Shown: positions 1 through 53,296 of the stretch, piece after piece
Position numbering within the stretch: position 1 is the first letter of the stretch
Layout: every line of letters begins with the position of its first letter
Assembly: GCA_018261905.1 (NCBI GenBank)
Contig: JAGTRU010000004.1
Location: 62,001-126,000 of the forward strand
DNA: 64,000 nt
DNA from: Pseudomonadota bacterium
GTDB lineage: Bacteria > Pseudomonadota > Gammaproteobacteria > Burkholderiales > Rhodocyclaceae
Reading direction: 5' to 3'
Position numbers and translations under genes: made by a program
The notes under the pieces: generated by a model
Told to the model about the DNA's origin: nothing
What the model saw: the letters and a program-made list of their open reading frames with translations, nothing else
The model's database searches: none

Positions 1-569
1 GCCAGTTCCGGCGAGCCGGCGAGCAGGCTGCGGGCATAGCCGTTCTGGCCGAGCGTTTGTTGCGCCAAGACCCCGTCGATGCGCCGGAAATAATCGACAT
101 GCGCCGCCCCGGCCGAGGAAAAGTCGCCCTCCTCGGCGTAATACGGCCCCTTGCGATAACTGATGCGATCGACCAGTTCCGGGATCAGGAAATTGAGATC
201 GGTGTAGCCCTGGCCGTGGGCGTGGGTCGGCATATTGACCGGTACACCGCCGACGTAGGTGGCGAAGTCGGTGCCGTGATCGAGATTGAAACCGCGCAGG
301 AAATACTGGTTGGCCTTGCCGTCGCCGGCATGCTGGGTGACGATCAGGCCGGGCACCATCTCCAGCGCCTCGCCGGGCCGCAGGATCGGCACGGCGGCCA
401 GACGCTGGCTGGAAACCACGCCTTCGCTGCCCGCCGTCGCGATGCCTTCGAGATTTTCGGTCTGTGCTCGCACCTCGACGGTCGAGAGCTGTGGTGTTTC
501 CTCGGCCACGGCCGCCCCCGCCAAGCCCAACATGGCGATTACCATTAGCGTCCGCTCAAATTTCCTCAT
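1..569 (-). CDS. TonB-dependent outer-membrane receptor, 3' part missing (window edge)
   Basis: Reading the minus strand from the ATG at 569 gives a signal peptide (MRKFERTLMVIAMLGLAGAA, then VAEE) followed by a plug domain. Plug segments visible include VEVRAQTENLEGIATAG, a PGEALEMVPGLIV stretch and the family-typical FNLDHGTDFATYVGG / PTHAHGQGYTDLNFL region. The start has a strong Shine-Dalgarno (AGGAGGGAG) and overlaps the stop of the CobN-like gene as ATGA, so the two are co-transcribed. The beta-barrel lies beyond the left edge. It is the last visible gene of the NikR-linked TonB/ExbB/CobN operon. The protein should sit in the outer membrane and import a metal chelate; the substrate is not readable from sequence. 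Confidence 0.9.
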   Translation of the reverse strand, partial: MRKFERTLMVIAMLGLAGAAVAEETPQLSTVEVRAQTENLEGIATAGSEGVVSSQRLAAVPILRPGEALEMVPGLIVTQHAGDGKANQYFLRGFNLDHGTDFATYVGGVPVNMPTHAHGQGYTDLNFLIPELVDRISYRKGPYYAEEGDFSSAGAAHVDYFRRIDGVLAQQTLGQNGYARSLLAGSPEL

Positions 570-3500
570 ACTCCCTCCTGCGTTATTGGTAGCCGCACCA
601 CCGAGTATTTCCGCCATCCCCAACCGGCTACGGCAAGCAGCAACAAAACTGCCCCCATCCAACCCGTCACGGCCGGCAGACTGCCCGGGACGGCCGGTTT
701 GATTTCCGTCATTTCGAGACCGTTGACCGGTGGCGCTTCCGCCGCCGGCACGGGAGGCGCCGTGGTTGCGCTGGCAGCCGCTTGCGCCACCTTCGTCGCT
801 GGCACCGCTTGTTGTCCAAGGCGGAATGCCTTTCCCTCACCCGGCACCGGCTGTTGCGCTGCGACATCGGCCAGTCGCCGGTCCTGGGTCTTGGCCTGGG
901 CCGTCACTTGCGGACTCGAACAGGTGTCGACAGAGCAGGCGACACCAGCCTCGGCGATGCTTTCCTGATTCGCTTGCTGTAGCCTCGCCACGGTTTCCGG
1001 CGAAGCTTTCCAGTAGCCCTTGTTGACTGCTGTCAGCATGCGATCGACCATCACCTGGTAGGCGAGCATGTTCCCGGCCTCCCTGAATTTCTTGCGAATC
1101 CCGAGCTGGTGACGGTCGACGACATAGGTCTCGTACATTTCCTGCCACTTCGTATCGTCGATCTTGTCCGGGGTCGTCACCGTCCACCCCCACAGATGCT
1201 CGACGACCTTGTTGACGAAGCGGGCACCGGCATAGCCTTCCTGCAGCATGACCTCGATCCACTGCGGGTTGAGGTAGCGGGAACGCATTTCCCGTCCCAT
1301 GTATTTCTCCAGGGTTTCAGTTTTTGCTTCGTGCGGGTTGGCCATATTGGTCACCAGCACTTCCGGTGTCGAGCCATTGACCTGGCGGATGGCCAGCGCC
1401 GTGCCCCCCAGGTACTGGAAGAAATCGTCGTTATCGAGCGTTGCGTAAATATTCGACGAACGACTGTGAATGGCGGCCTCCGCCCCCTTGAGCGCCAGCT
1501 TGAAGAGATCGACGCCCAGTTGCGGCGCCGTCTCCTGCGTTACCTTGCCGTCCTTGATGACCCGGCCACCCCAGAAACCCTGACCGTAAGCGTGGCTCAT
1601 GCGCATGAAATAGACGTCGGCCACCTGCTTTTCGCTCTCCCAGGTATTGGAGAACGGGATCACCTTGTCGAGATTGGTCCCGTAGGCGCCGGAAGGCACC
1701 GAGAAGAGACGCACGGCAGCAAGTTTTTCGGCCTCTTCTTTGGCGACACCTTGCGCCATCAAGGCAGCCTTGGTTTCCTGCACGTGCTGGCGCAGGGGAT
1801 TGTCGCCCTCCGACGCCTCACGTGCAGCGCTGGCGGCCTCGTCGAGAAGTTTCATCAAGTTAGCAAAGAGATCGCGGTAAAGACCGGAGGGAACCACCGT
1901 CACATCGACTCGCGGCCGCTCCAACTTGTCTCTGGCAATCGCCACCACCCCGGCGACCCGACCACGCGCATCCCACACTGGTTTGACACCCCACAGGGCC
2001 ATGATTTGGGCTTCCATCACCCCTTCATGGCGCGAGGACTCCACCCCCCAAAGATTGAACACCAGGCGCTTCGGCCAGCGGCCATGGCGTTTCTTCCAGT
2101 TATCCACCAGATCCTCGGCCAGTTTTGCCCCCACTCCATAGGTCGCCGGCGTCGGCAGACGCGACGGATCAAAGCCGAACAGATTGCGACCGGTGGGCAA
2201 CGAAGCCGGATTACGGATCGGATCGTTGCCGGGCCCAGCCGCCACATAGCGACCGGCCAGGCCGGCAGCCAGGGCATTGAGTTCGGCCCGCCCGCTCTGC
2301 TCCAGAGCCATTTCCAGCGCTGCCTGCCGATTAGCACGAACATCTGGCGCCAGACCGGCCTCCAACGAAAGGACAGCCTCCGCCGTTGAGCGACGGCGTT
2401 CGGCCGATGGCGCCAGACCAAAGGTATGCATTCCGAAGGGACTGCGCTTTTCCTCGATGTCCTTGATGTGATGCTCCATCTCCTCGATGGCTGCATCGTC
2501 AACCTCGGTGATGCCCAAATCTTTGAGCAAGCCCATCTTGGCGGCGCGAGCGGCGATGTCGGCGCGAATGGCCGCGGGCGCGAGATTTCCCTTCTCCCTG
2601 GCCACGGCGAAATCCGAAATGAGACCAACCAGTTCCTTCAACTCGGGGTTGAGGCCTGCTTTGTCAAGCGGCGGGGTCAGGTGGGAAATGATGGTTGCCA
2701 TGCCCCGACGTTTGGCCTGGAGCGCCTCACCGATGTCGTCCACGATGTAGGGATAGAGTTGCGGCACAGCACCAACGAAGATTTCGCCGGGATCAGCGGC
2801 AGTAAAGCCGACTTCCTTGCCCGGGTGCCATTCGTGCGTCGCATGGGTCCCGACATGGACCATCGCATGCACACCGGCCTCGTGTTGCAGCCAGAGATAG
2901 AAGGCCAGGTATTGGTGATGCGGCGGCACGGTGACATCGTGGTACAGCTTCTTGACGTCCTGCTCCCAGCCGCGACTGGGTTGCGGTGCAAAGATGAGGT
3001 TACCCCAGCGCTGTGCCGGGAAAATAAAGTTCGGTACGCCACGCTCGTCCCGCCAGATGGATACTTTTGATTCCTCCGGCCGCCCCCAGGCGTTTCTCAT
3101 GGCCTCCTGCAGTTCAGCCGGCAGTTTGTCGAAATACTTGCGGTATTCGCTCACCGGCCAGAGAACGACTTTGCCACTCTTCGCCAGGGCAGTGATCGCT
3201 CCGGCCTGCCAGTTGCCGAGATTAGCCCCATGGCCGCGAATCGCCTCGAACAAAGCCTCTTCGTCAGAGGGTGCCGCCTTGGCCCAATAGCCATCCTGGC
3301 GCAAGCGCTCGAGAATCTGCCACAACGAGCGGGGCAACACGTTCAGGTAGGAGGCGCCAATGTTTTCCTTGCCCGGCGGATAGTTGTAATAGATGACCGC
3401 CACTTTTTTGCCCGGATTCGCCGTTGACCGCAGATCGGCCCATCGCCGGGCGCGCTCGGCGATGCGTTCCACACGTTCAGGGATAGGCGTTTCGGCAATC

Positions 3501-4513
3501 ACTTCCAGGCCGCCCTCCGAATCGCGAACCTTTTCCTTGCTGGCCACGACGGTCGGGGCAATCGTCCCGGCGAACTCTGCACCAGCCACCTGCCATGAGC
3601 GCTCCATGATGTCCAGACCGACCGGCGAAGACTCCCAGGCTGCGCGGCTCTGACTATTCAAGGTAATGGCGTTGAGCACTGGCGCTCCCAGCCTTTCCAG
3701 CACCGGTACCACCTTGTCAGGGCTGACGCCGATTTTCATGCCGAGCGCGATGACTCCGACAACCCGCGGACGTCCTTCATCATCGAAGAGATACTTTTCG
3801 ACGACCAGTTCGTTGGGATAACCGAACACTGGCAGAGCGTTGAGGCCGCGCTTTTCCAGTTCCCTGGCAATTGCCCGCACCGTCGCCGTCTGACCCGACA
3901 AGGCATTACTGCGATAAAAGAGAACGGCCACCCAGGGCGCCCCGTCGCGCCCCCGATAAAGTTTGCGATAGTCCTCGAAGTGCTCGACGACCTTGCGGCT
4001 CTTCGCTTCAAACAGGCCTATTTCCGGCATTGCCAGCGGCCCCGGCGGTCGCTTGCCCAGCTTGAATTCTCGCGCCAGGCCAAGGCGCACCATGTTGGCT
4101 ACATTGTCCGGGCCGCCGGCCAGCATGTAGTCGCGCAGGAGATTGTCCCGAGTCAGACCGAAATCGACGAAATCCGCATCCCAGGTTCGCCCGACCGCAT
4201 AGGCCCGACCGCCCCGGGCGGCAATGCTGCGCAACTCGGCGGCCAGCCCGGTCGCCAGATTGCGCCCGGTCGTCTGCACAAACACCAGGCGCGAGGCCTG
4301 CAAAGCGCCACGGTCGGCCGAGGCCAGGTCAACGCTGGGGTAAATGGCGAAACGCACATCGCGCAAGGCCGAGTCGGCACGCAACTGCTTGACTGCCGCC
4401 AGCGCCGTCTGCGAATCCAGATCGCCGAGCACCAGGCTGACGGTCAATGGCGCCGCCTGGAGCCACCCGGCCCAGAGCCAGAAAATGAGGGCCTGCAGCT
4501 TATTCCGGCACAT
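566..4513 (-). CDS. Secreted, membrane-anchored CobN/HmuS-like chelatase
   Basis: About 1315 residues, close to the length of CobN, the large subunit of aerobic cobaltochelatase. Recognisable family segments are HVGTHATHEWHPGKE, the FNLWGVESSRHEGVMEAQ region and YGTNLDKVIPF. Unlike cytosolic CobN it begins with a signal peptide (MCRNKLQALIFWLWAGWLQA) and ends with a single transmembrane segment (about 20 hydrophobic residues) and a short basic tail, so it should face the periplasm. This is the architecture of HmuS of Bacteroidota hmu operons, a CobN relative implicated in removing metal from haem. The ATG at 4513 overlaps the DUF2149 gene by 14 bases and gives the signal peptide; a longer reading frame upstream has none and was not used. 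The His-rich catalytic region is intact. Inferred role: metal insertion into or removal from a tetrapyrrole or similar chelate brought in by the flanking TonB receptors. Nickel is suggested by the NikR-like operator upstream of the operon. Confidence 0.85.
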   Translation of the reverse strand: MCRNKLQALIFWLWAGWLQAAPLTVSLVLGDLDSQTALAAVKQLRADSALRDVRFAIYPSVDLASADRGALQASRLVFVQTTGRNLATGLAAELRSIAARGGRAYAVGRTWDADFVDFGLTRDNLLRDYMLAGGPDNVANMVRLGLAREFKLGKRPPGPLAMPEIGLFEAKSRKVVEHFEDYRKLYRGRDGAPWVAVLFYRSNALSGQTATVRAIARELEKRGLNALPVFGYPNELVVEKYLFDDEGRPRVVGVIALGMKIGVSPDKVVPVLERLGAPVLNAITLNSQSRAAWESSPVGLDIMERSWQVAGAEFAGTIAPTVVASKEKVRDSEGGLEVIAETPIPERVERIAERARRWADLRSTANPGKKVAVIYYNYPPGKENIGASYLNVLPRSLWQILERLRQDGYWAKAAPSDEEALFEAIRGHGANLGNWQAGAITALAKSGKVVLWPVSEYRKYFDKLPAELQEAMRNAWGRPEESKVSIWRDERGVPNFIFPAQRWGNLIFAPQPSRGWEQDVKKLYHDVTVPPHHQYLAFYLWLQHEAGVHAMVHVGTHATHEWHPGKEVGFTAADPGEIFVGAVPQLYPYIVDDIGEALQAKRRGMATIISHLTPPLDKAGLNPELKELVGLISDFAVAREKGNLAPAAIRADIAARAAKMGLLKDLGITEVDDAAIEEMEHHIKDIEEKRSPFGMHTFGLAPSAERRRSTAEAVLSLEAGLAPDVRANRQAALEMALEQSGRAELNALAAGLAGRYVAAGPGNDPIRNPASLPTGRNLFGFDPSRLPTPATYGVGAKLAEDLVDNWKKRHGRWPKRLVFNLWGVESSRHEGVMEAQIMALWGVKPVWDARGRVAGVVAIARDKLERPRVDVTVVPSGLYRDLFANLMKLLDEAASAAREASEGDNPLRQHVQETKAALMAQGVAKEEAEKLAAVRLFSVPSGAYGTNLDKVIPFSNTWESEKQVADVYFMRMSHAYGQGFWGGRVIKDGKVTQETAPQLGVDLFKLALKGAEAAIHSRSSNIYATLDNDDFFQYLGGTALAIRQVNGSTPEVLVTNMANPHEAKTETLEKYMGREMRSRYLNPQWIEVMLQEGYAGARFVNKVVEHLWGWTVTTPDKIDDTKWQEMYETYVVDRHQLGIRKKFREAGNMLAYQVMVDRMLTAVNKGYWKASPETVARLQQANQESIAEAGVACSVDTCSSPQVTAQAKTQDRRLADVAAQQPVPGEGKAFRLGQQAVPATKVAQAAASATTAPPVPAAEAPPVNGLEMTEIKPAVPGSLPAVTGWMGAVLLLLAVAGWGWRKYSVVRLPITQEGV

Positions 4514-4838
4514 ACACCACGCGTCCATCGCCCAACCGGTAGGCGGTGCCGAGTTTCTCACCCTGCCCGGAAAGGTGCTTGTCAGTGACCTTGTGGGCCT
4601 TGATCTCGTTGCCCTTCTTGGTAATGACCTCGATCTGGCCATTGGAGCCCTTCTTGGTGATGGTCACTTCGGCACTCGGATTGACCAGGTCAATCATGTT
4701 GTAGGCCATGAACAGGGCAATCATCATCGAAACAATGAAAACGATCGAGGCGTCAAACAGGTTGGCGACCCCGGAAATCGGGTCTTCCAGCGCCTCCTGA
4801 CCGTTATCGGCACGCCTACGCCGTTTCAGATAGCGCAT
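4500..4838 (-). CDS. DUF2149 protein, probable ExbD-like partner
   Basis: A 112-residue protein. The ATG at 4838 was chosen because GGAAGG precedes it; longer starts overlap exbB more. The N-terminus is strongly basic (RYLKRRRRAD), followed by one membrane span (about residues 30-50) with NLFDASIVFIV, and a periplasmic tail of about 65 residues rich in Lys and Gly. This topology, and the Asp placed just at the start of the membrane span, resemble ExbD/TolR. No ExbD gene is present, so DUF2149 probably completes the ExbB motor. It overlaps exbB upstream and the CobN-like gene downstream. DUF2149 genes next to ExbB and CobN-like genes are also known from hmu-type operons. The ExbD-like function is inferred. 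Confidence 0.8.
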   Translation of the reverse strand: MRYLKRRRRADNGQEALEDPISGVANLFDASIVFIVSMMIALFMAYNMIDLVNPSAEVTITKKGSNGQIEVITKKGNEIKAHKVTDKHLSGQGEKLGTAYRLGDGRVVYVPE

Positions 4839-5397
4839 GGCTGCCTTCCGGTTGATCAAGGCCATGCTCCCGGGCCGCAACTTCTGTCAGATACTCCATT
4901 TCTCGAATGTCGTCCTTCAGCCATTTTTCGCGAACCAGCGCAATCAGGTAGGCGACGACGCCGCTACCCAGGCCGGCGACCGTCGCGGTAAAGGCAGTCA
5001 CCATGCTGCCAGCCATCTTGGGAATATTGCCCTCGGCCAGCGCAGCCAGCGAGATGCCCATGGGAATCAGCGTTCCCATCAGGCCAAGCGCCGGCCCGAC
5101 CTTGATCACGAAACGGATGCGGTCGAGGTTTTTCGCCAGGCTCAACTCAGCGCCTTGCAGCAGGCGCTCCAGGCGAGCATCGAGATGCGGCGTACCGAGC
5201 GCCAGTTCGATCGCCATTTGCGCCCGATAGGCAGTCACCGCCCTCGCCAGTTTTCGTCGCTCCCAGGCTTCATGCACCAATGCGCCCAGCATCAGCGCCA
5301 CATAGACGATAAGCAGGGAGACGCCGAGGATCACCGGCAGGTAGAACGCGTTGGAGACATCGAAAAGAAAGCGTTCAAGCCATGATACGAATTCCAT
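4816..5397 (-). CDS. exbB: MotA/TolQ/ExbB-family proton channel
   Basis: A 193-residue inner-membrane protein with three hydrophobic segments: near residues 15-40, and a pair around 100-125 and 130-155. The conserved core KVGPALGLMGTLIPMG, followed by MVTAFTATVAGLGSGVVAYLI, is diagnostic of the MotA/TolQ/ExbB family and supplies the proton channel that energises TonB-dependent transport. Its ATG shares one base with the stop of the upstream TonB receptor (TGATG), and its 3' end overlaps the DUF2149 gene, so it is translationally coupled in the operon. It is dedicated to this cluster; no tonB gene is visible in the window, so TonB must come from elsewhere or be replaced. Confidence 0.9.
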   Translation of the reverse strand: MEFVSWLERFLFDVSNAFYLPVILGVSLLIVYVALMLGALVHEAWERRKLARAVTAYRAQMAIELALGTPHLDARLERLLQGAELSLAKNLDRIRFVIKVGPALGLMGTLIPMGISLAALAEGNIPKMAGSMVTAFTATVAGLGSGVVAYLIALVREKWLKDDIREMEYLTEVAAREHGLDQPEGSHALSETA

Positions 5398-7634
5398 CAG
5401 AAGGCTCCGGACAGTTCAAAAAACCAGGCTCGACCTGGAGCACGGTAGGAGGCGTAGTACTCGTGGTCGAATAGGTTGTCGATCGACAAGGCCAACTTGA
5501 AGTTGCTGTTGATCCGGTACACCCCTCTGACATCAACCAAGGTATAAGCATCGTAGGCTCCTGGCACACCGGTCACCGTATCCGAGTTATCTTCCGCCGA
5601 ATAACGCTGGGCAACGTAACGAGCCGTCGAGGAAACCGACCATGTGCCATGCTGCCACTCGGCCCCCAGGGCCGCAGTTGTTTGCGGAACCTGGGGAAAC
5701 TTCTTCCCCTCTGCCCCAGGATTCAGCCTATTCTCGAGAATCTTCGTATCGTTGTAAGCCAGACTACCGAAGGCGCTCCAGTTACTGGAAAGCACCTGGC
5801 GAAGCGAGAGTTCGACGCCCTGGCTACGCGCCCGGCCGGCGTTGTCCCAGACCCGGCAGTTGTCCTTGGCGACATTCAAGGCCTGACCACAGACGCTGAG
5901 CGCCTCGGTATTGTCCTTGACCGTCTTGCGGTAAATCATGTCCTTGAACTGGTTGTGATAAACAGTCAGTTTCAGGTCGGCACCCGGCCAGGGCTTCAAA
6001 TCGGAGCCGATATCCGCTCCGAGCAGGCTTTCCGGTTCAAGTCTGGGATTCCCCGCAAAGACCGTTCCTGCCGTGGAACGCCAGGTCCGGTACAAATCGT
6101 AGATATTCGGGGCTCGGAATGCCTTGCCCAGACTGGCGCGCAACAAGACTTGCGGGGACAGACTCCAGGTTGCGCCCAAACGCGGCGAAACGGCCTCGAC
6201 CGTTTTGCCGGCATAAGTACGCGAGAAGGCGCCACTACCATATTTGGCGGAATAGCCGTCGGTCGCTTCCCAGAGGTCATAGCGCAAGCCGGCATAGGCG
6301 CGTACCGACGTGGCTAGCGCCAGTTCAGCCTGGGCAAACAAGCCGGTCGTCGCTGCCTTGCCGCCGGATTCGGAAGCCTTCGAAGTACGCGACAACTCGT
6401 TGCGCCAGTCGCCCAGATCGTACTCGCTGGTATTGGCCTTTTCCTCGCGTCGGCTGGCACCCCAGAGCAACAGATGCTGACCGAAAAGAGGTGTGGTTAC
6501 CGTTGCTTCCAGTTGACTGCTACGTAAAGGTGTTGAGGAGAAGCCATTGGCCGCCGCACCGCCACTGGCCGTTGCCGTACTCAACGTCGAGGTCACCGTC
6601 GTATACCAGTTGGTACCGATATCAATGACACCGCCCAGGACTTTCACCTTCGACTCACCGATTCGCGTCTCCAGCCCGAGACTGGAAATATCGCGGACCA
6701 TCTCGCCTTGTCCGGGCAAAAAGGCTGCCTCCCGAACTGTCGAGCCATTGGTATACGTCCATACCTGATCGCCAGCTACATTACGTAAATAGCTCTGATA
6801 GTTTTCGTATTCGTAGCGATAAGCCGTTCGCTTGTACGAGGCACTGAGCGCACTGTCCGCGTCGATCCGGAAAGCGGCGCGGATGGCAATCTGCGAATCG
6901 CGCCAAGCATTTTCACCCTTGTCACCGATGATGTAAGTCGTTGCCCCGGCTGTCGTCGCCGTCCGGGTCGCACCACTCACGGAGGCTGGCGGGGCCGTCG
7001 TGCTACGCACTTCGTCGGTCACATAGCCGTCGGTCTGCGATTCCGCCACCGAGACCTGTAGCGACAGGCCGTTCTGCCAGGCATTGCCGGCCGAAAGGTA
7101 CGTCCGCAACAAATTGGCCGGCGCCCTGCCGGTACCCAAGCCATTGCCGTAACCCAGCTTGAAGCGATACTCCTCGGCCTTCGGCATGCGGCTAACGAAA
7201 TTGATGACGCCGCCCATGGCACTGGAACCATACAGACTGGAGCCGGGACCAAGCACCACTTCTACGCGCTCCAGATCTTCGGGCGCAAAGCCACCAACGT
7301 CCGCACCGCCGGTATACGCATCATTGATCGACAGGCCATCAACCATGATCAGGCTGCGCTTGGCATCGGGTACGCCACGCAAGGTAATGGCGTTAAGGGT
7401 GTCCATAAAGCCCTTGCCACGCCGCTGGAAAACCCCGGGAACCAGGCTGACAGCCTCGTCTACACTCTTGATATTGCGCTTTTCCATCTGCTCGGCGGTT
7501 ACCACATAACTGGCGACTGGCGTTTCGTCGACTGCCTTGTTGCTGCGCGTTGCGGTAACCAGCATTTCCGGCAACTCGGTAGTTTCTTCTCCCTGAACGC
7601 CAAGCGCCGTCAGTGAAATAAAAATCAGAACCAA
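5397..7634 (-). CDS. TonB-dependent receptor, first gene of the chelatase operon
   Basis: A 745-residue outer-membrane receptor. A TonB-box-like stretch (PEMLVTATRS) follows the signal sequence, then a plug domain (DEAVSLVPGVFQRRG, RSLIMVDGLSINDAY, ERVEVVLGPGSSLYGSSAMG), a beta-barrel, and a C-terminal Phe (FELSGAF) as expected for Bam-dependent insertion. The only regular start in frame is TTG at 7634. This gives a hydrophobic but weakly charged signal peptide; an upstream in-frame ATT (7668-7670) would give a more basic leader, so the start is uncertain. A NikR-like operator lies 19-45 bases upstream of the TTG. It heads the operon receptor-exbB-DUF2149-cobN-like-receptor. The likely substrate is a nickel- or cobalt-containing chelate, inferred from regulation and neighbours. 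Confidence 0.9.
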   Translation of the reverse strand: MVLIFISLTALGVQGEETTELPEMLVTATRSNKAVDETPVASYVVTAEQMEKRNIKSVDEAVSLVPGVFQRRGKGFMDTLNAITLRGVPDAKRSLIMVDGLSINDAYTGGADVGGFAPEDLERVEVVLGPGSSLYGSSAMGGVINFVSRMPKAEEYRFKLGYGNGLGTGRAPANLLRTYLSAGNAWQNGLSLQVSVAESQTDGYVTDEVRSTTAPPASVSGATRTATTAGATTYIIGDKGENAWRDSQIAIRAAFRIDADSALSASYKRTAYRYEYENYQSYLRNVAGDQVWTYTNGSTVREAAFLPGQGEMVRDISSLGLETRIGESKVKVLGGVIDIGTNWYTTVTSTLSTATASGGAAANGFSSTPLRSSQLEATVTTPLFGQHLLLWGASRREEKANTSEYDLGDWRNELSRTSKASESGGKAATTGLFAQAELALATSVRAYAGLRYDLWEATDGYSAKYGSGAFSRTYAGKTVEAVSPRLGATWSLSPQVLLRASLGKAFRAPNIYDLYRTWRSTAGTVFAGNPRLEPESLLGADIGSDLKPWPGADLKLTVYHNQFKDMIYRKTVKDNTEALSVCGQALNVAKDNCRVWDNAGRARSQGVELSLRQVLSSNWSAFGSLAYNDTKILENRLNPGAEGKKFPQVPQTTAALGAEWQHGTWSVSSTARYVAQRYSAEDNSDTVTGVPGAYDAYTLVDVRGVYRINSNFKLALSIDNLFDHEYYASYRAPGRAWFFELSGAF

Positions 7635-7652: not shown

Positions 7653-7679
7653 GTATGAATTATTTTTAATTTATCTTAC
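7653..7679 (-). promoter_or_regulatory. Putative NikR operator before the TonB receptor
   Basis: The sequence is GTATGA, 15 bases, TCTTAC. The first half is identical to the NikR half-site and the second matches TCATAC at five of six positions. Spacing equals that of the perfect site at 8549-8575. It sits just upstream of the receptor start, where Ni-NikR binding would block initiation. Confidence 0.65.
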
Positions 7680-7690
7680 CCCTTACCGAT

Positions 7691-7713
7691 AAAAAAGCCG
7701 GCAAGCCGGCTTT
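7691..7713 (-). terminator. Rho-independent terminator of the NiCoT permease gene
   Basis: On the minus strand an 8-bp perfect stem (AAAGCCGG / CCGGCTTT) closes a four-base loop and runs straight into a T tract. It lies 17 bases beyond the permease stop, separating that transcript from the TonB receptor operon, which has its own operator. Confidence 0.8.
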
Positions 7714-7729: not shown

Positions 7730-8539
7730 TTATGCCACAGCTATCCGCCGGGTCATACGTACAGCCAACAAATAGCTGCCGGCCACGATAAGTACTAGCG
7801 AGAAACCGAATATCATCTCCTTACCCTCGCTCCAGGCATTGATACTCGGCGACAACAGCTTGGCGGCGCCGAAGGCGGCGACCAGCAGGCTGACGGCCGA
7901 GACGACCAGGGCCATGACACGCGAGGCGACCAGCGCGACCTGATCGGCCCGGGCGATCAGGCGGGCGATCCACAAGCCGTTGATGCCATCGGTCAGCAGC
8001 ATGCCGAGCATGAAGAGCAGCGCCAGGACCAGGGCATGCTCCCAGCCGCCGAACTGGGTGGCGGTGAGGGCGAAAAAGGCGGCCTGCGAAAGGGTATCGA
8101 AGGACAGGGCGAACAAGGCGCCGACCAGGGCGACCAGCGCCGGCTGGGAAACGTGGCGGAGATTGCCGAGCCAGCGGCCCTTCAGCCCCACCGGCTGCAC
8201 CACTTCATCGGGTTCGGCACGGAGGACGGCGGACAGATTGAGACTGCCGAGGGCGACCAGGAAGGCGATGGAAATCACCGCACCGAGCAGGGCGAACCAT
8301 TCCGGCACCTGCCACTGCCCGGCAAGCGCCGAGACGCCGAGGGCAATGGCCATCACCACGGCACCGTGGCCAAGCGAAAACAAGGTACCGCAATAACGCG
8401 ACATGCCCGGCCGGGCCCGCGCGTTATACCGGGTCAACCCATCGATGGTCGCCAGATGATCGGCATCGAAACCATGCTTCATGCCGAGCACGAAGGTCAG
8501 GATCAGTAATGACAGCCAGTCGGAGGACAGCGCTTCCAT
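7730..8539 (-). CDS. hoxN: NiCoT-family nickel/cobalt permease
   Basis: A 269-residue inner-membrane protein with about eight hydrophobic segments. It carries the NiCoT signatures in order: HGFDADHLATID (metal-binding HX4DH in the second helix), SLGHGAVV (LGHSTVV-type), LSFDTLSQ (GFDT-type) and MLGMLLTDGINGLW (GMxLxDTxDG-type). It is shorter than HoxN of Cupriavidus (about 350 residues). A perfect NikR-type palindrome lies immediately upstream, and a terminator lies between it and the TonB receptor. It should bring Ni2+ from periplasm to cytoplasm for the hydrogenase maturation proteins encoded further along. Transport of cobalt as well cannot be excluded. Confidence 0.9.
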   Translation of the reverse strand: MEALSSDWLSLLILTFVLGMKHGFDADHLATIDGLTRYNARARPGMSRYCGTLFSLGHGAVVMAIALGVSALAGQWQVPEWFALLGAVISIAFLVALGSLNLSAVLRAEPDEVVQPVGLKGRWLGNLRHVSQPALVALVGALFALSFDTLSQAAFFALTATQFGGWEHALVLALLFMLGMLLTDGINGLWIARLIARADQVALVASRVMALVVSAVSLLVAAFGAAKLLSPSINAWSEGKEMIFGFSLVLIVAGSYLLAVRMTRRIAVA

Positions 8540-8548
8540 GGTCAGCCC

Positions 8549-8575
8549 GTATGAATGTTTTCGTAATCTTCATAC
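8549..8575 (-). promoter_or_regulatory. NikR operator before the nickel permease
   Basis: A perfect inverted repeat GTATGA-N15-TCATAC, extendable to GTATGAA/TTCATAC, starts 10 bases upstream of the permease ATG. The half-sites equal those of the E. coli nik operator, but the spacer is 15 rather than 16 bases. nikR itself lies about 1.4 kb away. Confidence 0.85.
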
Positions 8576-8652: not shown

Positions 8653-9987
8653 TCAGCGGCCGGCCACCGGCAGGGCGAGGACGAATTCCGCACCGCCGCC
8701 CGCCACGTTGCCGGCACTTAACCGTCCGCCATGCCGCTCGACGATGCCGTAGCTGATCGACAGGCCGAGACCGGTGCCCTGGCCGACCGGCTTGGTGGTG
8801 AAGAAAGGTTCGAATAGCCGATCGAGATGTTCGGCCGCAATCCCCGGACCGTTGTCGACAAAACGCAACACGACCATGCCGTCGACCACGCCACCGCTAA
8901 TTTTCAAGCTCGCTTGCGGCTGGCTGGCCGTCGCGTCGCAGGCGTTCTGGACGAGGTTCATGACCACCTGCTGCAATTGCCCGGAGGAACCGGAACAGAT
9001 CAAAGCGGGTGGCAGATCGAGGGTCACGGCAAATTTCGCCGTCGCACTCTGCACCACCCAGCGCACCGAGCGCTCGACGACATCGTTGAGACTGACCTGT
9101 TCCGGCGTCATCTTGTCTACCGCCGAGAAGCGCTTCAGGGCGTCGACGATATCGCGGGTCCGTTCGGCACCTTCGATCATGCCGTCGATCAATTGCGGCA
9201 TGTCGGCCAGGATGCGATCGATGCGCAAGTCCTGGCGCAGGGCGGGCAACGCCTCCGTCTCCGCCGCCGGACTGGCATGGACGGCCGTGAGATAGGTCGT
9301 CAGGCGCCGGCCGTAGCGTTGCAGGGAAAGGACGTTGCCGAGGACGAAACTGATCGGGTTGTTGAGTTCGTGCGCCACACCGGCCACCAGCCGGCCGAGC
9401 GAGACCATTTTCTCGGCATGCAGCAACTGGCCCTGCGTCCGCTTCAGATCGTCGTGCGCCTGCCGCAATGCCGAATAGGCCCTACGCAACTCGCCGACCG
9501 GGCGCCCGGTGACCACCATGCCCATCAATTTGCCGGTCTGCGACAGGCGCGGCGTGCAGTTCATCGACACCGGCACCGTCGACCCGTCGCCGGCGCGCAG
9601 GAAAAACTCGCAGTCATGAACGCCTTCGCGGCCGAATCGGGCGAAGACGTCGCGCGCCCGGGCGCGCTCCAGATCATCGGCGAAGAGGTCGAAAACCGGC
9701 TTGTGCTCGAGTTCTTCGGCCGACTTGCCGGAGAAGTGACGGAGCGAGGAATTGACTTCGTCGATATTGCCGTTGCGGTCGCAGACGATCAGGATGTCCG
9801 ACATCGAGGCCAGCACGCTCTCGATGAACTGGTGCGAATCCTCGAGTGCCGCATTCTTTTCCTCAAGGGCCACTTCGTATTGGAGGAGGTCGTTGTAGAC
9901 CTCGTCCATTTTCTGGATCACCTCGATCCAGGCCTGCTCGCCGTCCGGGGGGAACGCCGATTCAGCGGGCGGGACGGTAATGGACAT
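8653..9987 (-). CDS. hupT: Hydrogenase sensor histidine kinase HupT/HoxJ
   Basis: A soluble histidine kinase of about 444 residues. It has an N-terminal coiled region (YEVALEEKNAALEDSHQF) and a PAS domain (about 60-180). The dimerisation/phospho-acceptor H-box is GRLVAGVAHELNNPISF, and the ATPase domain has N-box NLVQNACDA, G1 DNGPGI and G2 GTGLGLSI. No transmembrane segment is present, as in HupT/HoxJ, which read the H2 signal from the regulatory hydrogenase HupUV and control the response regulator HupR/HoxA. Both partners are encoded at 26,477-30,362. It overlaps the 3' end of nikR; an earlier ATG at 10014 is also possible. The assignment as HupT rests on context plus this architecture. Confidence 0.8.
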   Translation of the reverse strand: MSITVPPAESAFPPDGEQAWIEVIQKMDEVYNDLLQYEVALEEKNAALEDSHQFIESVLASMSDILIVCDRNGNIDEVNSSLRHFSGKSAEELEHKPVFDLFADDLERARARDVFARFGREGVHDCEFFLRAGDGSTVPVSMNCTPRLSQTGKLMGMVVTGRPVGELRRAYSALRQAHDDLKRTQGQLLHAEKMVSLGRLVAGVAHELNNPISFVLGNVLSLQRYGRRLTTYLTAVHASPAAETEALPALRQDLRIDRILADMPQLIDGMIEGAERTRDIVDALKRFSAVDKMTPEQVSLNDVVERSVRWVVQSATAKFAVTLDLPPALICSGSSGQLQQVVMNLVQNACDATASQPQASLKISGGVVDGMVVLRFVDNGPGIAAEHLDRLFEPFFTTKPVGQGTGLGLSISYGIVERHGGRLSAGNVAGGGAEFVLALPVAGR

Positions 9988-10426
9988 GGGCGTCACCGTG
10001 TTCGTCGTGGGCATGGTGATGCTCGGGCTCCAGGGCGATCACGTTGAGATGACCATGGCGGACGCCGCTTTCCGCCATCAGGGCATCGGCGAATTGTCGG
10101 ACATCGGCGGTCGCCCCCTTCAAAATGACGGATTCCAGACAATTGTCGTGGTCCAGGTGGCTGTGCATCGCCGCCACCGTCAGGTCATGATGCGCATGCT
10201 GCAAGCCGGTCAGACGTTCGGCCATTTCCCGTTCGTGATGGTTATAGACATAGGACAGGTTGGCGACGCAATGGCCGGCCGGTGCCGCCCGCTGGCCATC
10301 GCTCTCGATGGCGCCACGGATCAGGTCGCGCACGGCTTCCGAACGATTGCTATAACCGCGCACGGCGATCAACTGGTCGAACTGGCGGGCCAGCGATTCG
10401 TCCAGCGAAATGGTAAAGCGCTCCAT
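9962..10426 (-). CDS. nikR: Nickel-responsive repressor NikR with His-rich tail
   Basis: A 154-residue protein. An N-terminal ribbon-helix-helix DNA-binding domain (MERFTISLDESLARQFDQLI, then RSEAVRDLIR) is followed by an ACT-like metal-binding domain. The nickel ligands are recognisable: a His in the HAHHDL segment, HSH and the Cys of DNCLE, spaced as in E. coli NikR (H76, H87, H89, C95). Unlike the 133-residue E. coli protein it continues past RHGHLNVIALE with a tail of about 20 residues containing seven histidines (EHHHAHDEHGDAHVHY). The ATG at 10426 follows an AGGAG. It is co-oriented with hupT, and its probable operators lie before the permease and the TonB receptor. Confidence 0.93.
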   Translation of the reverse strand: MERFTISLDESLARQFDQLIAVRGYSNRSEAVRDLIRGAIESDGQRAAPAGHCVANLSYVYNHHEREMAERLTGLQHAHHDLTVAAMHSHLDHDNCLESVILKGATADVRQFADALMAESGVRHGHLNVIALEPEHHHAHDEHGDAHVHYRPAR

Positions 10427-10599
10427 GGATCATTCTCCTGACGAAAACAGCGGCCACAATGCCGGCATTTTTCCGCACATGCAACCCGCCCCCGGCAAAA
10501 ATCGGGAACGGGATATGCTTGAAACTCACTGCGGAAAGCGATTCCCGCTTTCGCATCCCTGCTTTCACCAGAAGCGGGCAGCACCAGGAGGAAGTCATC

Positions 10600-11565
10600 A
10601 TGGCCCATACCGACATCCGACTCGCCGTCGCCGAAGAACGCACCATCTACGACGTGGCCGCCATCGAGCGCGCCATGGAAGAGGCCGCCGGCAACCGCAA
10701 CGAGGCTCTGGCCACGCTCTACGACAAGATGAAGCAACGCGGCGGCGGCCGCTTCCTGGTCCGCCCGAGCGGCGCCGACATGATCGACGAGCTCTACGAC
10801 AGTTGCCCCAATTTTGCTGAAGTCATCGACGACCTCAAGAAGTACATCGCCCTCTCGGTGGCCGGCAACGAGCCGATGAGCTTCACACCCATCCTGCTGC
10901 TCGGCGAACCGGGCATCGGCAAGACCCATTTCGCCCGCGAACTGGCCACCCTTCTGGGGACCGGCCACGAATTCATCTCCATGAGTTCGCTGACCGCCGG
11001 CTGGGTGCTGTCCGGCGCCTCGGCACAATGGAACAACGCCAAGCCGGGCAAGGTAGCGCACACTTTGGTGCATGGCGACTACGCCAACCCCATTGTGGTG
11101 CTCGACGAAGTAGACAAGGCCGGCGGCGATTCCCGCTACGACCCGATGGGCGCCCTCTACGGCCTGCTCGAACGCGACACGGCGCGCGCCTTCAAGGACG
11201 AGTTCATCGATATCGACATCGATGCGTCGCACATCCTGTGGGTGACGACGGCCAACGACGAACGCTCGATTCCCGAACCGATCCTCAACCGCATGAACGT
11301 CTACGAAGTGCCGCGCCCCGACCACGATGCGGCGCTCAGCATCGGCGCCGCCCTCTACCGCGAAATCGTCAGTCAGCACGACTGGGGCTTCCCGCCGGAA
11401 GCCGAAACCAGCATCCTCGAACGCCTCGGCTCATTGCCGCCGCGCGACATGAAGAAGCGCCTGCTGGCCGCCTTCGGGAGCGCCAAACTGGAAGGCCGCA
11501 ACTATCTGGTCGAGCCCGATTTCGAGCAAACCAGGATGGGACGCAGCCGGAAGATCGGCTTCTGA
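10600..11565 (+). CDS. Lon-like AAA+ ATPase
   Basis: A 321-residue single AAA+ module. An N-terminal alpha-helical part of about 85 residues precedes Walker A (GEPGIGKTHFAREL), Walker B (PIVVLDEVDKAGG), sensor 1 (WVTTANDE) and an arginine finger (LNRMNVYEV). The region around Walker B resembles the AAA domain of Lon, but the protease domain is absent. The ATG at 10600 follows a strong AGGAGGAAG; upstream in-frame codons are non-coding in character. It is divergent from nikR and convergent with the small membrane protein downstream. Function unknown; presumably a remodelling ATPase. Confidence 0.75.
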   Translation: MAHTDIRLAVAEERTIYDVAAIERAMEEAAGNRNEALATLYDKMKQRGGGRFLVRPSGADMIDELYDSCPNFAEVIDDLKKYIALSVAGNEPMSFTPILLLGEPGIGKTHFARELATLLGTGHEFISMSSLTAGWVLSGASAQWNNAKPGKVAHTLVHGDYANPIVVLDEVDKAGGDSRYDPMGALYGLLERDTARAFKDEFIDIDIDASHILWVTTANDERSIPEPILNRMNVYEVPRPDHDAALSIGAALYREIVSQHDWGFPPEAETSILERLGSLPPRDMKKRLLAAFGSAKLEGRNYLVEPDFEQTRMGRSRKIGF

Positions 11566-26476: not shown

Positions 26477-27895
26477 CTAATGCACCGTACACACCATGCA
26501 CGGATCAAATGATCGCACCACATGCTGCACCGTCGGCAGCGCACCTTCGCCGGCGGCTAAACCAACCAGGGCCAGTTCGAGTGGGCCGGGCTGGCCGGTG
26601 GCGTCGCGTGGCGAAAAGTTCCAGGTGGTGGGGGCGATGATCTGGTAGCGCTCGATGCGGCCGCGCTTGATGTTCAGCCAATGACCGAGGCTGCCGCGAG
26701 CCGCTTCGACGAGGCCGACGCCGCTGCCTTCATCGGGCAATTTGCCCTGGGCGCAGAAGGCTTCGCCGGGCCGGAGGGCCTGCACCCAGGCTTCCATGGC
26801 CGGCAAGACAAGAGCCAGTTCGAGCAGGCGGGCGACGACGCGGGCGACGACACTGCCGCCATCCCGGGCGACAAAATCGACCAGCAGCGGGTTGCCGGCG
26901 ACAAGCTGGCGGGCCAGGGCGCCGACTTCGGCCGGCTGGCCGGCGTAGCGCGGTGCCTTGCACCAGGTATAGGCAGCGGCCTTGTCGGCGGCGACGATGG
27001 TTTCGCCATTCGCCGGATGGCGTGGCGGACTGTCGAGTAGCCAGGCGTGGGTGCTGTCTTCGGCAATCTGCGCGGCGTCGAAGGCGGCCGTAGCTCCCGA
27101 CGCCCGGACACCGGCCGGGAACAGGGCGTAGGCGCCGTGCGAGAGGAAAACGTCGCCGGCCCGGCCGAGCTGGTCCAGACCGAGATCAAGTGCGGCCCTC
27201 AGGAAGGCCGGAAAATCGGCCACCCGGCCGTCCGCCCAGGCGAGCAGCGCGGCTTTGGAGTCGAGTTGGGCAACCGCCCCCAGATCGTCGCCGAACAGGC
27301 GTTTCTCCAGAAAACTGCGGAATTCGCGGAGCAGTGCCAGCAGACGGATGCGTTCGCCGGCCGTGATCGCCCGCGTGCTGCCGCCGGGCTGGATGGCCAG
27401 GCTGTGCGGCCAGCGCCCGGCGAGAAAGCCCATCAGCTTGAGAAAATTGGCCCGGGCCGTTAACACCTCGGCCGCCGCGTCGCCGGTGAGCGCCGTGAAA
27501 CGCCGGGCGACGGAGCCGTACCAAGGGCGATCGGCGTAGGCCGGGCGGGCGAAATCGGGCATGAAGAAGAGGTAGAAATGCGTCAGGTGATCGGCCAGAT
27601 TCTCGGTGGCCTGGATCAGTTGCCGGGCCAGCCGGCCGTTCGGCGGCAGCGTGATACCCATCGCGTCGGCCAGGGCCGCGGCAGCGGCCGCCGATTGCGC
27701 CACCGAGCAGATGCCGCAGATGCGCGGCACGATGGCCAGCGCGTCGAGCGCTGGCCGACCGACCAAGAGCTGCTCGAACCCGCGAAACAGCGGCGAATTG
27801 ACCCGGGCTTGGCCAATCCGGCCGCCGTCGAGGTCGAGACTGATCTCGAGATCGCCTTCAACCCGGTTGAAGGGGCCAAGCACGATGCGACTCAT
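26477..27895 (-). CDS. hupV: Regulatory (H2-sensing) hydrogenase large subunit
   Basis: 472 residues. The N-terminal nickel motif is RICGIC (around residue 58) and the C-terminal motif DPCMVCTVH. The protein stops exactly at that His, with no cleavable C-terminal extension, as in HupV/HoxC regulatory hydrogenases, so no protease processing is needed. With HupU it senses H2 in the cytoplasm and signals through HupT. The start overlaps the hupU stop (ATGA), and hupV is the last gene of the hydrogenase series. The remaining active-site residues (Arg and Glu in FNRVEGDLEI) are present. Confidence 0.95.
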   Translation of the reverse strand: MSRIVLGPFNRVEGDLEISLDLDGGRIGQARVNSPLFRGFEQLLVGRPALDALAIVPRICGICSVAQSAAAAAALADAMGITLPPNGRLARQLIQATENLADHLTHFYLFFMPDFARPAYADRPWYGSVARRFTALTGDAAAEVLTARANFLKLMGFLAGRWPHSLAIQPGGSTRAITAGERIRLLALLREFRSFLEKRLFGDDLGAVAQLDSKAALLAWADGRVADFPAFLRAALDLGLDQLGRAGDVFLSHGAYALFPAGVRASGATAAFDAAQIAEDSTHAWLLDSPPRHPANGETIVAADKAAAYTWCKAPRYAGQPAEVGALARQLVAGNPLLVDFVARDGGSVVARVVARLLELALVLPAMEAWVQALRPGEAFCAQGKLPDEGSGVGLVEAARGSLGHWLNIKRGRIERYQIIAPTTWNFSPRDATGQPGPLELALVGLAAGEGALPTVQHVVRSFDPCMVCTVH

Positions 27896-28887: not shown

Positions 28888-30362
28888 TCGTCCGACTCCA
28901 GGCCGTAACGCGCCAACTTGCCGCGCAGGCCGACGCGCGACAGACCGAGCTCGCGGGCCGCCCGCGACTTGTTGCCGCGATGGCGCAGCATGGCTTCGCG
29001 AACGACGTGCATCTCCAGGCGCTCCATGCGTTCCTTCAGACCGCCGCTCAGATTGGCGGCAGCCAGTGCCTCCTGCTCCGTCGTTTGCCGGCGGGCGTGA
29101 TATTGCAGGATACGCGGCGCCAGCAGGTCGCTACCGAGCAGCGGCACATCGGCCAGCGCCACCAGGCGCAGGATTTCGTTCTGCAATTCGCGGACATTGC
29201 CCGGCCACGGGTAGGCGGCAATGCTTTGCAGTACCTCCTCGGCAAAACCGTCGATGGCCTTGTCCAGCGACTGGCAACTGGTTTTCAACAAATGCCGGGC
29301 GAGCAGTGGCAGGTCCATCGGCCGTTCGCGCAAGGGCGGCACATGCAGCGGAATGGTCGCCAGCCGGTAATAGAGATCCTCGCGGAAACGCCCGGTCCGC
29401 ACGTCGTCTTCAAGATCGCGGTTGGTCGCGGCGATGATGCGCACGTCGCAGCTCACTACCCGGTTCGAGCCGAGCGGCCGGAATTCGCCTTCCTGCAGCA
29501 CGCGCAGCAGCTTGACCTGGAAGGCTGGGCTGGTTTCGCCGATTTCGTCGAGGAACAGCGTGCCGCCGTCGGCCTGCTGGAACAGGCCGACCCGGTCGTC
29601 GACGGCGCCGGTGAAGGCGCCGCGCTTGTAGCCGAAGAGTTCCGATTCGAGCAGGGTATCGGGCAGGGCGCCGCAGTTCTCGGTGATGAAGGGCCGGCTG
29701 GCCCGCCGGCTTTCGTAGTGGATGGCGCGCGCCACCATTTCCTTGCCGGTACCCGATTCGCCGGTCACCATCACCGACAGGTCGTAGGGCGCGATGCGCT
29801 CGATCAGCGCGCACAGCACATTGAGTGGGCTGTTCGGGGCACGGATGAAACTGCCCAGGCCGAAACTGCTTTTGACCTTGTCCTGCTTGGCATCGACGCG
29901 CTTCCTGAGCACCGGCTCGGCGGTGCGCAGATCGAGCGACAGACGCTGGTTTTCCTGCTGCAGGCGCCACAATTCGGCGGCGCGCTGCAGGGTGAGGAGC
30001 AATTGCTCCGGCTGCCAGGGCTTCAGCAGGTATTGCCAGATGCCGGCTTCGTTGACGCCGCTGATAATGTCCTCGGCGTCGGTGTAGCCGGAGAGGATGA
30101 TGCGCACGACATCCGGCCAGCGCTGGCGGACCTCCTTGAGAAAAGCGACACCGGTCGTCCCCGGCATACGCTGGTCGCAGAGCACGATGCGGATGGCGGC
30201 AGTGGCCATCTCGCGTTCCAGGACATCAATGCCTTCGGCCGCGCCGGAGGCGCAGAAGACCTCGAAATCCTCTTCCAGCGTCCGGCGCAAGGCTTCCTGT
30301 GAGCGCACCTCGTCATCGACGACAAGGACGGCCGGCAGTTTGCGCAGGCTGGTCGGATTCAT
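28884..30362 (-). CDS. hupR: NtrC-family response regulator of hydrogenase genes
   Basis: 492 residues. The receiver domain has DD near residue 16, the phospho-acceptor Asp in [12 protein letters not shown] and Lys in LLKPWQ. The AAA+ sigma-54-activating domain has Walker [25 protein letters not shown] (GAFTGA loop) and Walker [12 protein letters not shown]; a Fis-type HTH ends the protein ([20 protein letters not shown]). It should bind upstream of the sigma-54 promoter of hupSLC under control of HupT. It is encoded between hypX and hupU with four-base overlaps. In HupR/HoxA systems the unphosphorylated form is the activator; which applies here cannot be told from sequence. Confidence 0.93.
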
Positions 30363-35317: not shown

Positions 35318-35550
35318 TGGGTGATCAGCGCGTTGACCTGACTGAGTTCGGCGAACAGCGCCAGGGTCTTGGCCGCCTCTTCCGGATCGAGCTTGTTTAG
35401 CGCATAGCCGACATGCACGATGACATAGTCGCCAACCGCCACGTTATCGACCAGCGACAGCGAAATTTCCTTGCGCACGCCGGCCAGATCGACCACCGCA
35501 TTGTCACCTTCGCGCAGTTCAACGACTTGCGCGGGAATTGCCAGACACAT
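35314..35550 (-). CDS. hypC: HypC, [NiFe] maturation chaperone
   Basis: 78 residues beginning MCLAIPAQVVELREG. The mature N-terminal Cys2 binds the iron unit and the large-subunit precursor. Later segments (DLAGVRKEISLSLVDNVAVG, DYVIVHVGYALNKL) are the usual HypC beta barrel. A GGAGATGAA ribosome site lies upstream, within the 3' end of hypF, which it overlaps by 32 bases. A second HypC-like chaperone (HupF) is encoded at 49690. Confidence 0.97.
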   Translation of the reverse strand: MCLAIPAQVVELREGDNAVVDLAGVRKEISLSLVDNVAVGDYVIVHVGYALNKLDPEEAAKTLALFAELSQVNALITQ

Positions 35551-37825: not shown

Positions 37826-37940
37826 TACCGCACCCAATAAGCCAAAGCCGGCAGTTTAAGCCGCTAATGCCCGCCGACGATAATTCGCCCGCCGATGGCC
37901 GTGCGAATTACAATGCAGGCCGAATATCCGACCACTATTA

Positions 37941-51499: not shown

Positions 51500-53296
<1,797 letters not shown>

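Follow-up and report, generated by a model that had tools for sequence, protein, structure and literature searches.

The window examined here is a stretch of 64,000 nucleotides from the genome of a Rhodocyclaceae bacterium related to Azonexus (assembly GCA_018261905.1, contig JAGTRU010000004.1, positions 62,001 to 126,000 of the forward strand), at whose left end an operon for a CobN-like chelatase and two TonB-dependent receptors lies close to nikR, the gene of the nickel-responsive repressor. An earlier reading of the DNA, referred to below as the original prediction, had described the order receptor, ExbB, DUF2149, CobN-like protein, receptor under nickel-type control. This arrangement is real: the coordinates and profile matches of all five genes agree with it, all lie on the minus strand, and successive genes overlap end to start by 1, 23, 14 and 4 nt, with the starts as chosen.

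The leading gene encodes TonB-dependent receptor 1 (5397..7634; 745 residues, with a TTG start as called), whose NCBIfam matches all fall under cut-off. It is followed by an ExbB/MotA/TolQ-family proton-channel protein (4816..5397; 193 residues, MotA_ExbB 45.5 bits) and a DUF2149 protein (4500..4838; 112 residues, DUF2149 107 bits) with a single membrane segment and an invariant aspartate, D29. Compared with ExbD by hhalign, DUF2149 gives a probability of 1.7% and a P of 0.029, with the membrane aspartate in register, which does not establish it as an ExbD homologue; we take HmuU and HmuV, the proton-motive helpers of the hmu system, to match ExbB and DUF2149. The CobN-like gene (566..4513) encodes a protein of 1315 residues with predicted export, and matches CobN-Mg_chel at 999 bits; no other PF02514 gene was found in the genome. 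Receptor 2 (685 residues in full; Plug 53.5 bits, barrel 85.3 bits) lies in the window with its 5' part (1..569); its gene begins at 569, where the start overlaps the CobN-like stop, and runs on to L003:10512, some 1.49 kb past the left edge of the window (whole gene L003:10512-12569).

The nickel genes said to adjoin the operon are present on the same strand. A NicO/NiCoT-family permease with the motif KHGFDADHL occupies 7730..8539 (PF03824 63.7 bits, above the Pfam cut-off and far below the NCBIfam cut-offs), and nikR occupies 9962..10426, scoring above the NF002815 cut-off and below that of TIGR02793.

Candidate NikR sites

Genes for nickel uptake are repressed by NikR as long as the metal is abundant, and the operon is therefore expected to be active under nickel shortage. 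Two minus-strand inverted repeats are consistent with such control. A pattern scan places a perfect GTATGA-N15-TCATAC at 8549..8575, before the permease gene, and this is the repeat nearest to the wording of the original prediction; a second box, GTAAGA-N15-TCATAC when read along the operon, belongs to the operon itself and lies, with one mismatch, at 7653..7679, 18 nt 5' of the receptor 1 start as called. The enterobacterial NikR operator is described as GTATGAT-[N13/14]-ATCATAC, a repeat of 27-28 bp (PMC545781), so that N15 between six-letter half-sites is the regular 27-bp form, and an inverted repeat of 27-28 bp at the promoter, as expected of a NikR regulon member, is found here.

Across the 4.9-Mb genome, the permease box is the sole match to GTATGA-N15-TCATAC without mismatch, and the operon box is one of two with a single mismatch, the other lying within a 770-residue open frame. 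At up to two mismatches there are 39 matches, compared with 26 for the reversed pattern, so these weak matches mean little. The count within the window at this threshold (2 observed, 0.44 expected) is reached in 8 of 100 shuffles and is thus weak by itself, the weight being carried by genome rank and position; N16 boxes with up to two mismatches are absent from the window. Judged on sequence, both boxes are candidate NikR sites and binding of the repressor to them is likely.

The layout of the operon start is kept in two of the three closest orthologues, those of Azonexus sp. R2A61 (L116=L140, 72%) and Methyloversatilis thermotolerans (L117=L185, 69%), in which a hairpin with a T-run is followed by GGTAAGA-N14-TTCATAY. 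In the window, the hairpin is an intrinsic-terminator-like element on the minus strand (7691..7713, read by eye), 3' of the permease gene and directly before the operon box. N15 palindromes also lie near nikR in more relatives, about 1.5 kb from the NikR domain in G1128, about 0.15 kb in G1094 and, with one mismatch, about 1.6 kb in G643. A NikR box common to all orthologues was not found: L068-L070 have none with at most one mismatch, and in L118-L126 two-mismatch N15 matches occur only within called receptor open reading frames (ORFs; L122, L123, L126). It was the lack of the box in these wider orthologues that led us to the cobalamin riboswitches described below. In Azonexus R2A61, a gene for an RND pump (ACR_tran; L116 1132-4287) stands 3' of the NikR-box chelatase operon, at the place that receptor 2 holds in the window.

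A CobN-like protein with predicted export, and its family

Export to the periplasm, with an anchor in the inner membrane, is predicted for the CobN-like protein. The secreted and C-terminally anchored form that the original prediction gave it is supported for the anchor by hydropathy and for the signal peptide by reading and by relatives. The N-terminus, MCRNKLQALIFWLWAGWLQA-APL, looks like a signal peptide (our own reading, not a predictor's), and the C-terminus passes from an Ala/Pro-rich linker into a hydrophobic segment followed by Arg/Lys, with a hydropathy of 2.05 over a 17-residue window. Such a segment is present in 50 of the 52 family proteins measured, the remaining two being just below the cut, whereas five cytosolic chelatases all lack it; this sets the window protein apart from cytosolic CobN. 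N-terminal hydropathy was compared anew over matched lengths, as in an earlier comparison the family stretches had been longer than those of the controls: the 58 family proteins reach at least 1.79 (median 2.38) and the controls 1.11-1.65, the latter being L098 (ChlH-like) and L104 (CobN) together with L099, L105 and L106, grouped with them by tree only.

A predicted structure of residues 21-1205, with a predicted local distance difference test (pLDDT) score of 86 and a predicted template modelling (pTM) score of 0.81, shows the complete six-domain class I chelatase fold and matches only HmuS, CobN and ChlH over its whole length. The superfamily histidine of the H-x-G-x-H motif (taken from PMC12583661) is H557, equivalent to His538 of HmuS, and is present in 58/58 family rows; fold and histidine together place the protein in the CobN/ChlH/HmuS superfamily. 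It does not reach the NCBIfam CobN equivalog cut-off (831 bits vs 1248; for TIGR02257, 609 vs 822). A cysteine pair, C1193/C1198, is shared with the family, and the column of Met79, a haem ligand of HmuS, reads TTG in the window, GMG in HmuS and MG in several relatives, in a region where the larger alignment is poor.

At a threshold of 1e-50, relatives occur in 38 of 369 genomes of the class, 88 of 399 of the order and 112 of 395 of the family, with ordinary CobN and BchH included in these counts. In a collection of named genomes, 142 of the 159 pattern matches encode a relative, and the best 80 of them were taken, giving 77 loci; 58 were treated as the family, and the other 19 are fragments, one duplicate or members of more distant groups. 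These 58 loci, used for neighbourhood counts, and the 58 family rows used for residue columns overlap without being identical sets. In 56 of the 58 loci the CobN-like gene has those for ExbB and DUF2149 next to it, the remaining two being cut by contig starts, and single-sequence searches, which miss distant homologues, found a receptor nearby in 41/58 and a TonB-like gene in 12/58. Therefore, the chelatase-ExbB-DUF2149 triad is the core of the module and the receptor its variable part. A further arrangement is seen in L100-L103, with CobN-like proteins of about 1500 residues, an ExbB-like neighbour and no DUF2149 match.

Control by nickel, cobalamin and zinc regulators

nikR is found in 7 of the 58 family loci (L142, L144, L186, L152, L162, L166 and L208) and in 0 of 36 comparator loci (L071-L106); assuming one nikR per 4.5-Mb genome, about 0.23 nikR-bearing loci would be expected, for loci that are not independent. 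They comprise three of five Methylomonas loci, three from Verrucomicrobia and one from a Nitrospinota metagenome-assembled genome, in which nikR lies immediately 3' of the chelatase gene. The search for the module beside nikR that the original prediction had proposed thus succeeds in other lineages, and this recurrence, the boxes and the adjacent nikR and NicO genes support its nickel link. All three nikR-bearing Methylomonas loci carry a box with one or two mismatches and receptors, one of them 41-43% identical to receptor 2; L142 shows the order nikR, box, HupE/UreJ, receptor-2 homologue (42%), second HupE, ExbB, DUF2149, CobN-like protein, receptor. In Rhodoblastus acidophilus (L165), N16 boxes with one and two mismatches stand just before exbB and before the receptor, and the genome has two NikR matches elsewhere.

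Among the Verrucomicrobia, L208 combines nikR with genes of a CbiM/CbiQ-type transporter, with similar matches in L162. Palindromes of the form GTAATAC-N14-GTATTAC number two in L162, one in L163 and two in L208, with none in L166 or L175, amounting to 5 matches in 96 kb (8 loci) compared with 22 in 1.22 Mb (72 other loci), while five block shuffles give 0-1; being found in the same loci that gave the motif, they are suggestive only. A DUF3344 protein (by Pfam for L162) and a prepilin-like gene precede ExbB in place of the receptor in L162 (3951-5135) and L166 (7809-9035), and a CobW-family GTPase (L162 10359-11534) follows the chelatase and a small regulator-like gene.

Of the 43 family loci scanned, 20 carry an upstream cobalamin riboswitch (Rfam) on the operon strand, a count that admits those several kb before exbB in L119, L158 and L172 and omits that of L179, far downstream. 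Some of these loci also carry CbiZ, CbiMN or BtuCD genes. The original prediction had tied its nickel assignment to homologous operons not being consistently under Fur or B12 riboswitch control: these 20 loci go against it, and for the nickel-linked loci it holds, with a riboswitch in 0/10 compared with 20/33 of the others (hypergeometric 6e-4, uncorrected for kinship) and no Rfam match at gathering score in the window or L003. Azonexus R2A61 has one NikR-box copy (L116) and one riboswitch copy (L119), about 47 kb apart. With so many members behind riboswitches, the family is metal-switchable, not nickel-specific.

On a quick-mode tree of 95 rows (long branches flagged; 14 duplicates, 3 short rows and L177, which has no chelatase match, not included), nickel-linked proteins fall in several places, and three Ni/Co label changes suffice for the 34 labelled rows. 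The labels are 11 Ni and 23 Co; the Co labels of L148, L187 and L196 come from cbiZ alone, the Ni labels of L152, L162, L166 and L208 from nikR proximity, and L141, L155 and L184 were left unlabelled. Only three alignment columns separate nickel-linked from cobalt-linked proteins at the chosen thresholds, and mildly.

A more distant group shows no riboswitch in the ten loci scanned. In 23 loci of this group, 16 Zur-like sites occur at a threshold of two mismatches, three of them at a receptor (L085 13921, no mismatch; L087 13914, two; L089 8216, one); those of L087 and L089 lie 10 and 32 nt before the called receptor ORF, and that of L085 within a long called ORF. These distant receptor-chelatase-ExbB-DUF2149 operons may be a zinc version of the module resembling PA1922-PA1925. 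In the clade of L153, L160, L179 and L191, a PepSY membrane protein sits between receptor and ExbB (seen in the first three; L191 starts too late); the scanned loci show no upstream riboswitch, and the three genomes checked for NikR gave no match. Fur boxes were rejected for this clade, which gave just two matches with five mismatches, both within the chelatase ORF.

The window operon represents a nickel branch within the known periplasmic CobN proteins of BtuS/HmuS type and is no lone oddity. BtuS proteins, B12-regulated and of a third CobN-related type, were proposed by Rodionov in 2003 with a predicted role in metalloporphyrin salvage (cited in PMC6460266), and those of Bacteroides are predicted to be exported and membrane-anchored (PMC6460266). 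The riboswitch-controlled sister loci fit this description, and the window also pairs an exported, anchored CobN-like protein (its export signal by reading) with a receptor, whereas its operon follows NikR-like boxes, has nikR and a NicO permease as neighbours and lacks a riboswitch. The hmu operon of Bacteroidota likewise combines a TonB receptor, helper proteins and a CobN-like protein, HmuS, with membrane segments at both ends, the six-domain fold and the catalytic histidine; HmuS, which demetallates haem, was reported as a haem dechelatase in 2025 by authors who state that reliable annotation is not possible for most other superfamily members of bacteria and archaea (PMC12583661). In Pseudomonas aeruginosa, PA1922-PA1925 form a single metal-starvation operon whose role is unsettled, with genes for a TonB receptor, a CobN-like and an ExbD-like protein and with control by Zur and zinc (PMC4542158, PMC8531726, PMC10393844), and one review among these sources calls Zur regulation of PA1922 unique to P. 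aeruginosa within Pseudomonas. The known or predicted nickel receptors FrpB4, FecA3 and Daro_3944 share outer-membrane nickel uptake, NikR-controlled in Helicobacter, but the cited excerpts mention no chelatase module with them (PMC11247825, PMC3400609). The family is thus known in outline, and its nickel branch is the new part as far as our searches of open-licence papers go, whose titles, abstract openings and excerpts showed no NikR-controlled CobN-like/TonB nickel system; an earlier mention in Rodionov 2003/2006 is possible.

Proposed mechanism and alternatives

That the operon serves nickel acquisition is highly probable. In the mechanism we propose, it would be switched on under nickel starvation, once Ni-NikR leaves the two boxes, and receptors 1 and 2 would bring one nickel chelate, or several, in through the outer membrane. 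From its anchor in the inner membrane, the CobN-like protein, lying on the periplasmic side, would take the chelate into its class I chelatase cavity and remove the nickel by means of H557. The freed Ni2+ would enter the cytoplasm through the neighbouring NicO permease and could supply the [NiFe] hydrogenases encoded on the same contig, while ExbB and DUF2149 would serve as a proton-driven motor that belongs to the operon and acts on the receptors or on the chelatase itself.

Importing receptors, the lack of an ATPase partner in the operon, a periplasm free of ATP and the HmuS precedent make demetallation with handover of Ni2+ to NicO the simplest reading, and the macrocycle fold argues for a tetrapyrrole as cargo. 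F430 and geoporphyrins are candidate cargoes. We infer the demetallation, nickel as its metal, the macrocyclic, tetrapyrrole-like cargo and the partner of the motor. On our analysis the CobN-like protein probably demetallates, if by no wide measure; the full chain of chelate import, periplasmic demetallation and transfer to the permease is slightly favoured, and for a tetrapyrrole cargo the chances are even.

Several observations weigh against this reading. The N-terminal hydropathy of the window protein is just 1.55, which falls among the values of the cytosolic controls since the scale used treats its Trp-rich core as polar; its export signal therefore rests on sequence reading and relatives. 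Neither of the two HmuS-defining residues tested is conserved: the haem ligand His254 (HGR motif) falls in a region reading MKIG, with K260 in 58/58 family rows and HGR in none, and the LSLDHxxEFMGG stretch bearing His1209 is ATLDNDDFFQYLGG in the window, with N1028 and with histidine at that column in 0/58 rows. By these residues the protein is not an HmuS, and the likeness drawn in the original prediction holds for the fold and the catalytic histidine and fails for His254 and His1209, control being moreover of nickel and not iron type. Its sequence is marginally nearer to CobN (445 bits) than to HmuS (430 bits). The HmuS reaction needs NADH (PMC12583661), which has no evident periplasmic source, and a Bacteroides fragilis double mutant of the CobN-like BtuS proteins still makes protoporphyrin IX and grows poorly on haem (PMC6460266). 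The best NCBIfam matches of receptor 1, under cut-off, are to haemoglobin/transferrin, haem, siderophore and then B12 receptors, its matches to solved structures are generic, and receptor 2 has no match among PDB sequences at 0.001. As to control, the orthologue of Parasulfuritortus cantonensis (L141, 70% identical) has no recognisable box, though its genome has two NikR matches; G905, G853 and G396 have nikR and no N15 site with at most one mismatch; and none of the 12 orthologues at 51-58% in our first set has a NikR box at its promoter, a riboswitch being present in 8/12. Two of the five Methylomonas loci are without nikR (L155, which begins near a contig end, and L184, whose genome has no NikR match), and single-sequence searches found no receptor near the Verrucomicrobial chelatases.

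One alternative is a function in which no tetrapyrrole is involved: a linear nickel metallophore or Ni-histidine-like complex would be imported, and the CobN-like protein would bind or unload its metal in the periplasm, the C1193/C1198 pair being able to carry it. The TonB receptors FrpB4, FecA3 and Daro_3944, NikR-regulated or receptors for nickel and listed without mention of a chelatase in the excerpt of PMC11247825, fit such a function; yet the whole macrocycle-chelatase fold and the catalytic histidine are kept here and characterised relatives act on tetrapyrroles, so we rate it as unlikely. Somewhat less likely still is cobalt or corrinoid salvage, in which a BtuS protein would remove or swap cobalt in imported corrinoids and NikR control would be incidental or reflect shared Ni/Co uptake. 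The many riboswitch-controlled sister operons, some with CbiZ, CbiMN or BtuCD genes, and the mere three columns parting the two sets of proteins speak for it; however, no riboswitch occurs in the window or the nine other nickel-linked loci scanned, Azonexus R2A61 retains both kinds of copy, and the nickel-linked neighbours are NicO, HupE and nikR, with no CbiZ match in the named nickel-linked loci.

The original prediction had allowed for insertion as well as removal of nickel, and removal is favoured. Insertion into a tetrapyrrole imported without metal, in the manner of CobN with cobalt and of ChlH with magnesium, would accord with membership in the same superfamily, but the five operon genes include no CobS/CobT or ChlI/ChlD type, the periplasm lacks ATP and expression is expected under nickel limitation; we judge it highly improbable. 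Removal of nickel might also be more closely tied to the motor: in a proton-driven nickel dechelatase, which we put forward only as a speculation, ExbB and DUF2149 would power the anchored chelatase in place of the ATPase motor of CobN/ChlH, releasing nickel in the periplasm from scavenged Ni-tetrapyrroles (such as methanogen F430 or its breakdown products), and the same engine would have been rewired to nickel, cobalt and zinc control across lineages.

In this locus the regulator serves as an independent readout that links one chelatase branch to nickel. As related modules are accompanied by NikR boxes, by cobalamin riboswitches or, among distant relatives, by Zur-like boxes, it becomes testable whether periplasmic chelatases are general miners of metal from organic complexes. 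The suggested nickel source, Ni-tetrapyrroles, lies outside the NikABCDE, NikMNQO and NiCoT models.

As for the surroundings, a PAS histidine kinase gene identified by profile match (8653..10014, minus strand) sits between the NicO gene and nikR and overlaps the 3' end of the latter, and an ATPase-like ORF with a Walker A-like stretch (10459-11565, plus strand, read by eye) is divergent from nikR. The contig also carries [NiFe] hydrogenase large-subunit genes, at about 26480-27784 (ORF 26477-27895) and 51548-53140 of the window. Hydrogenase genes near the nickel locus further include HypF (35519-37837) and a protein combining formyltransferase and enoyl-CoA hydratase (30359-32035), which we take to be HypX-like.

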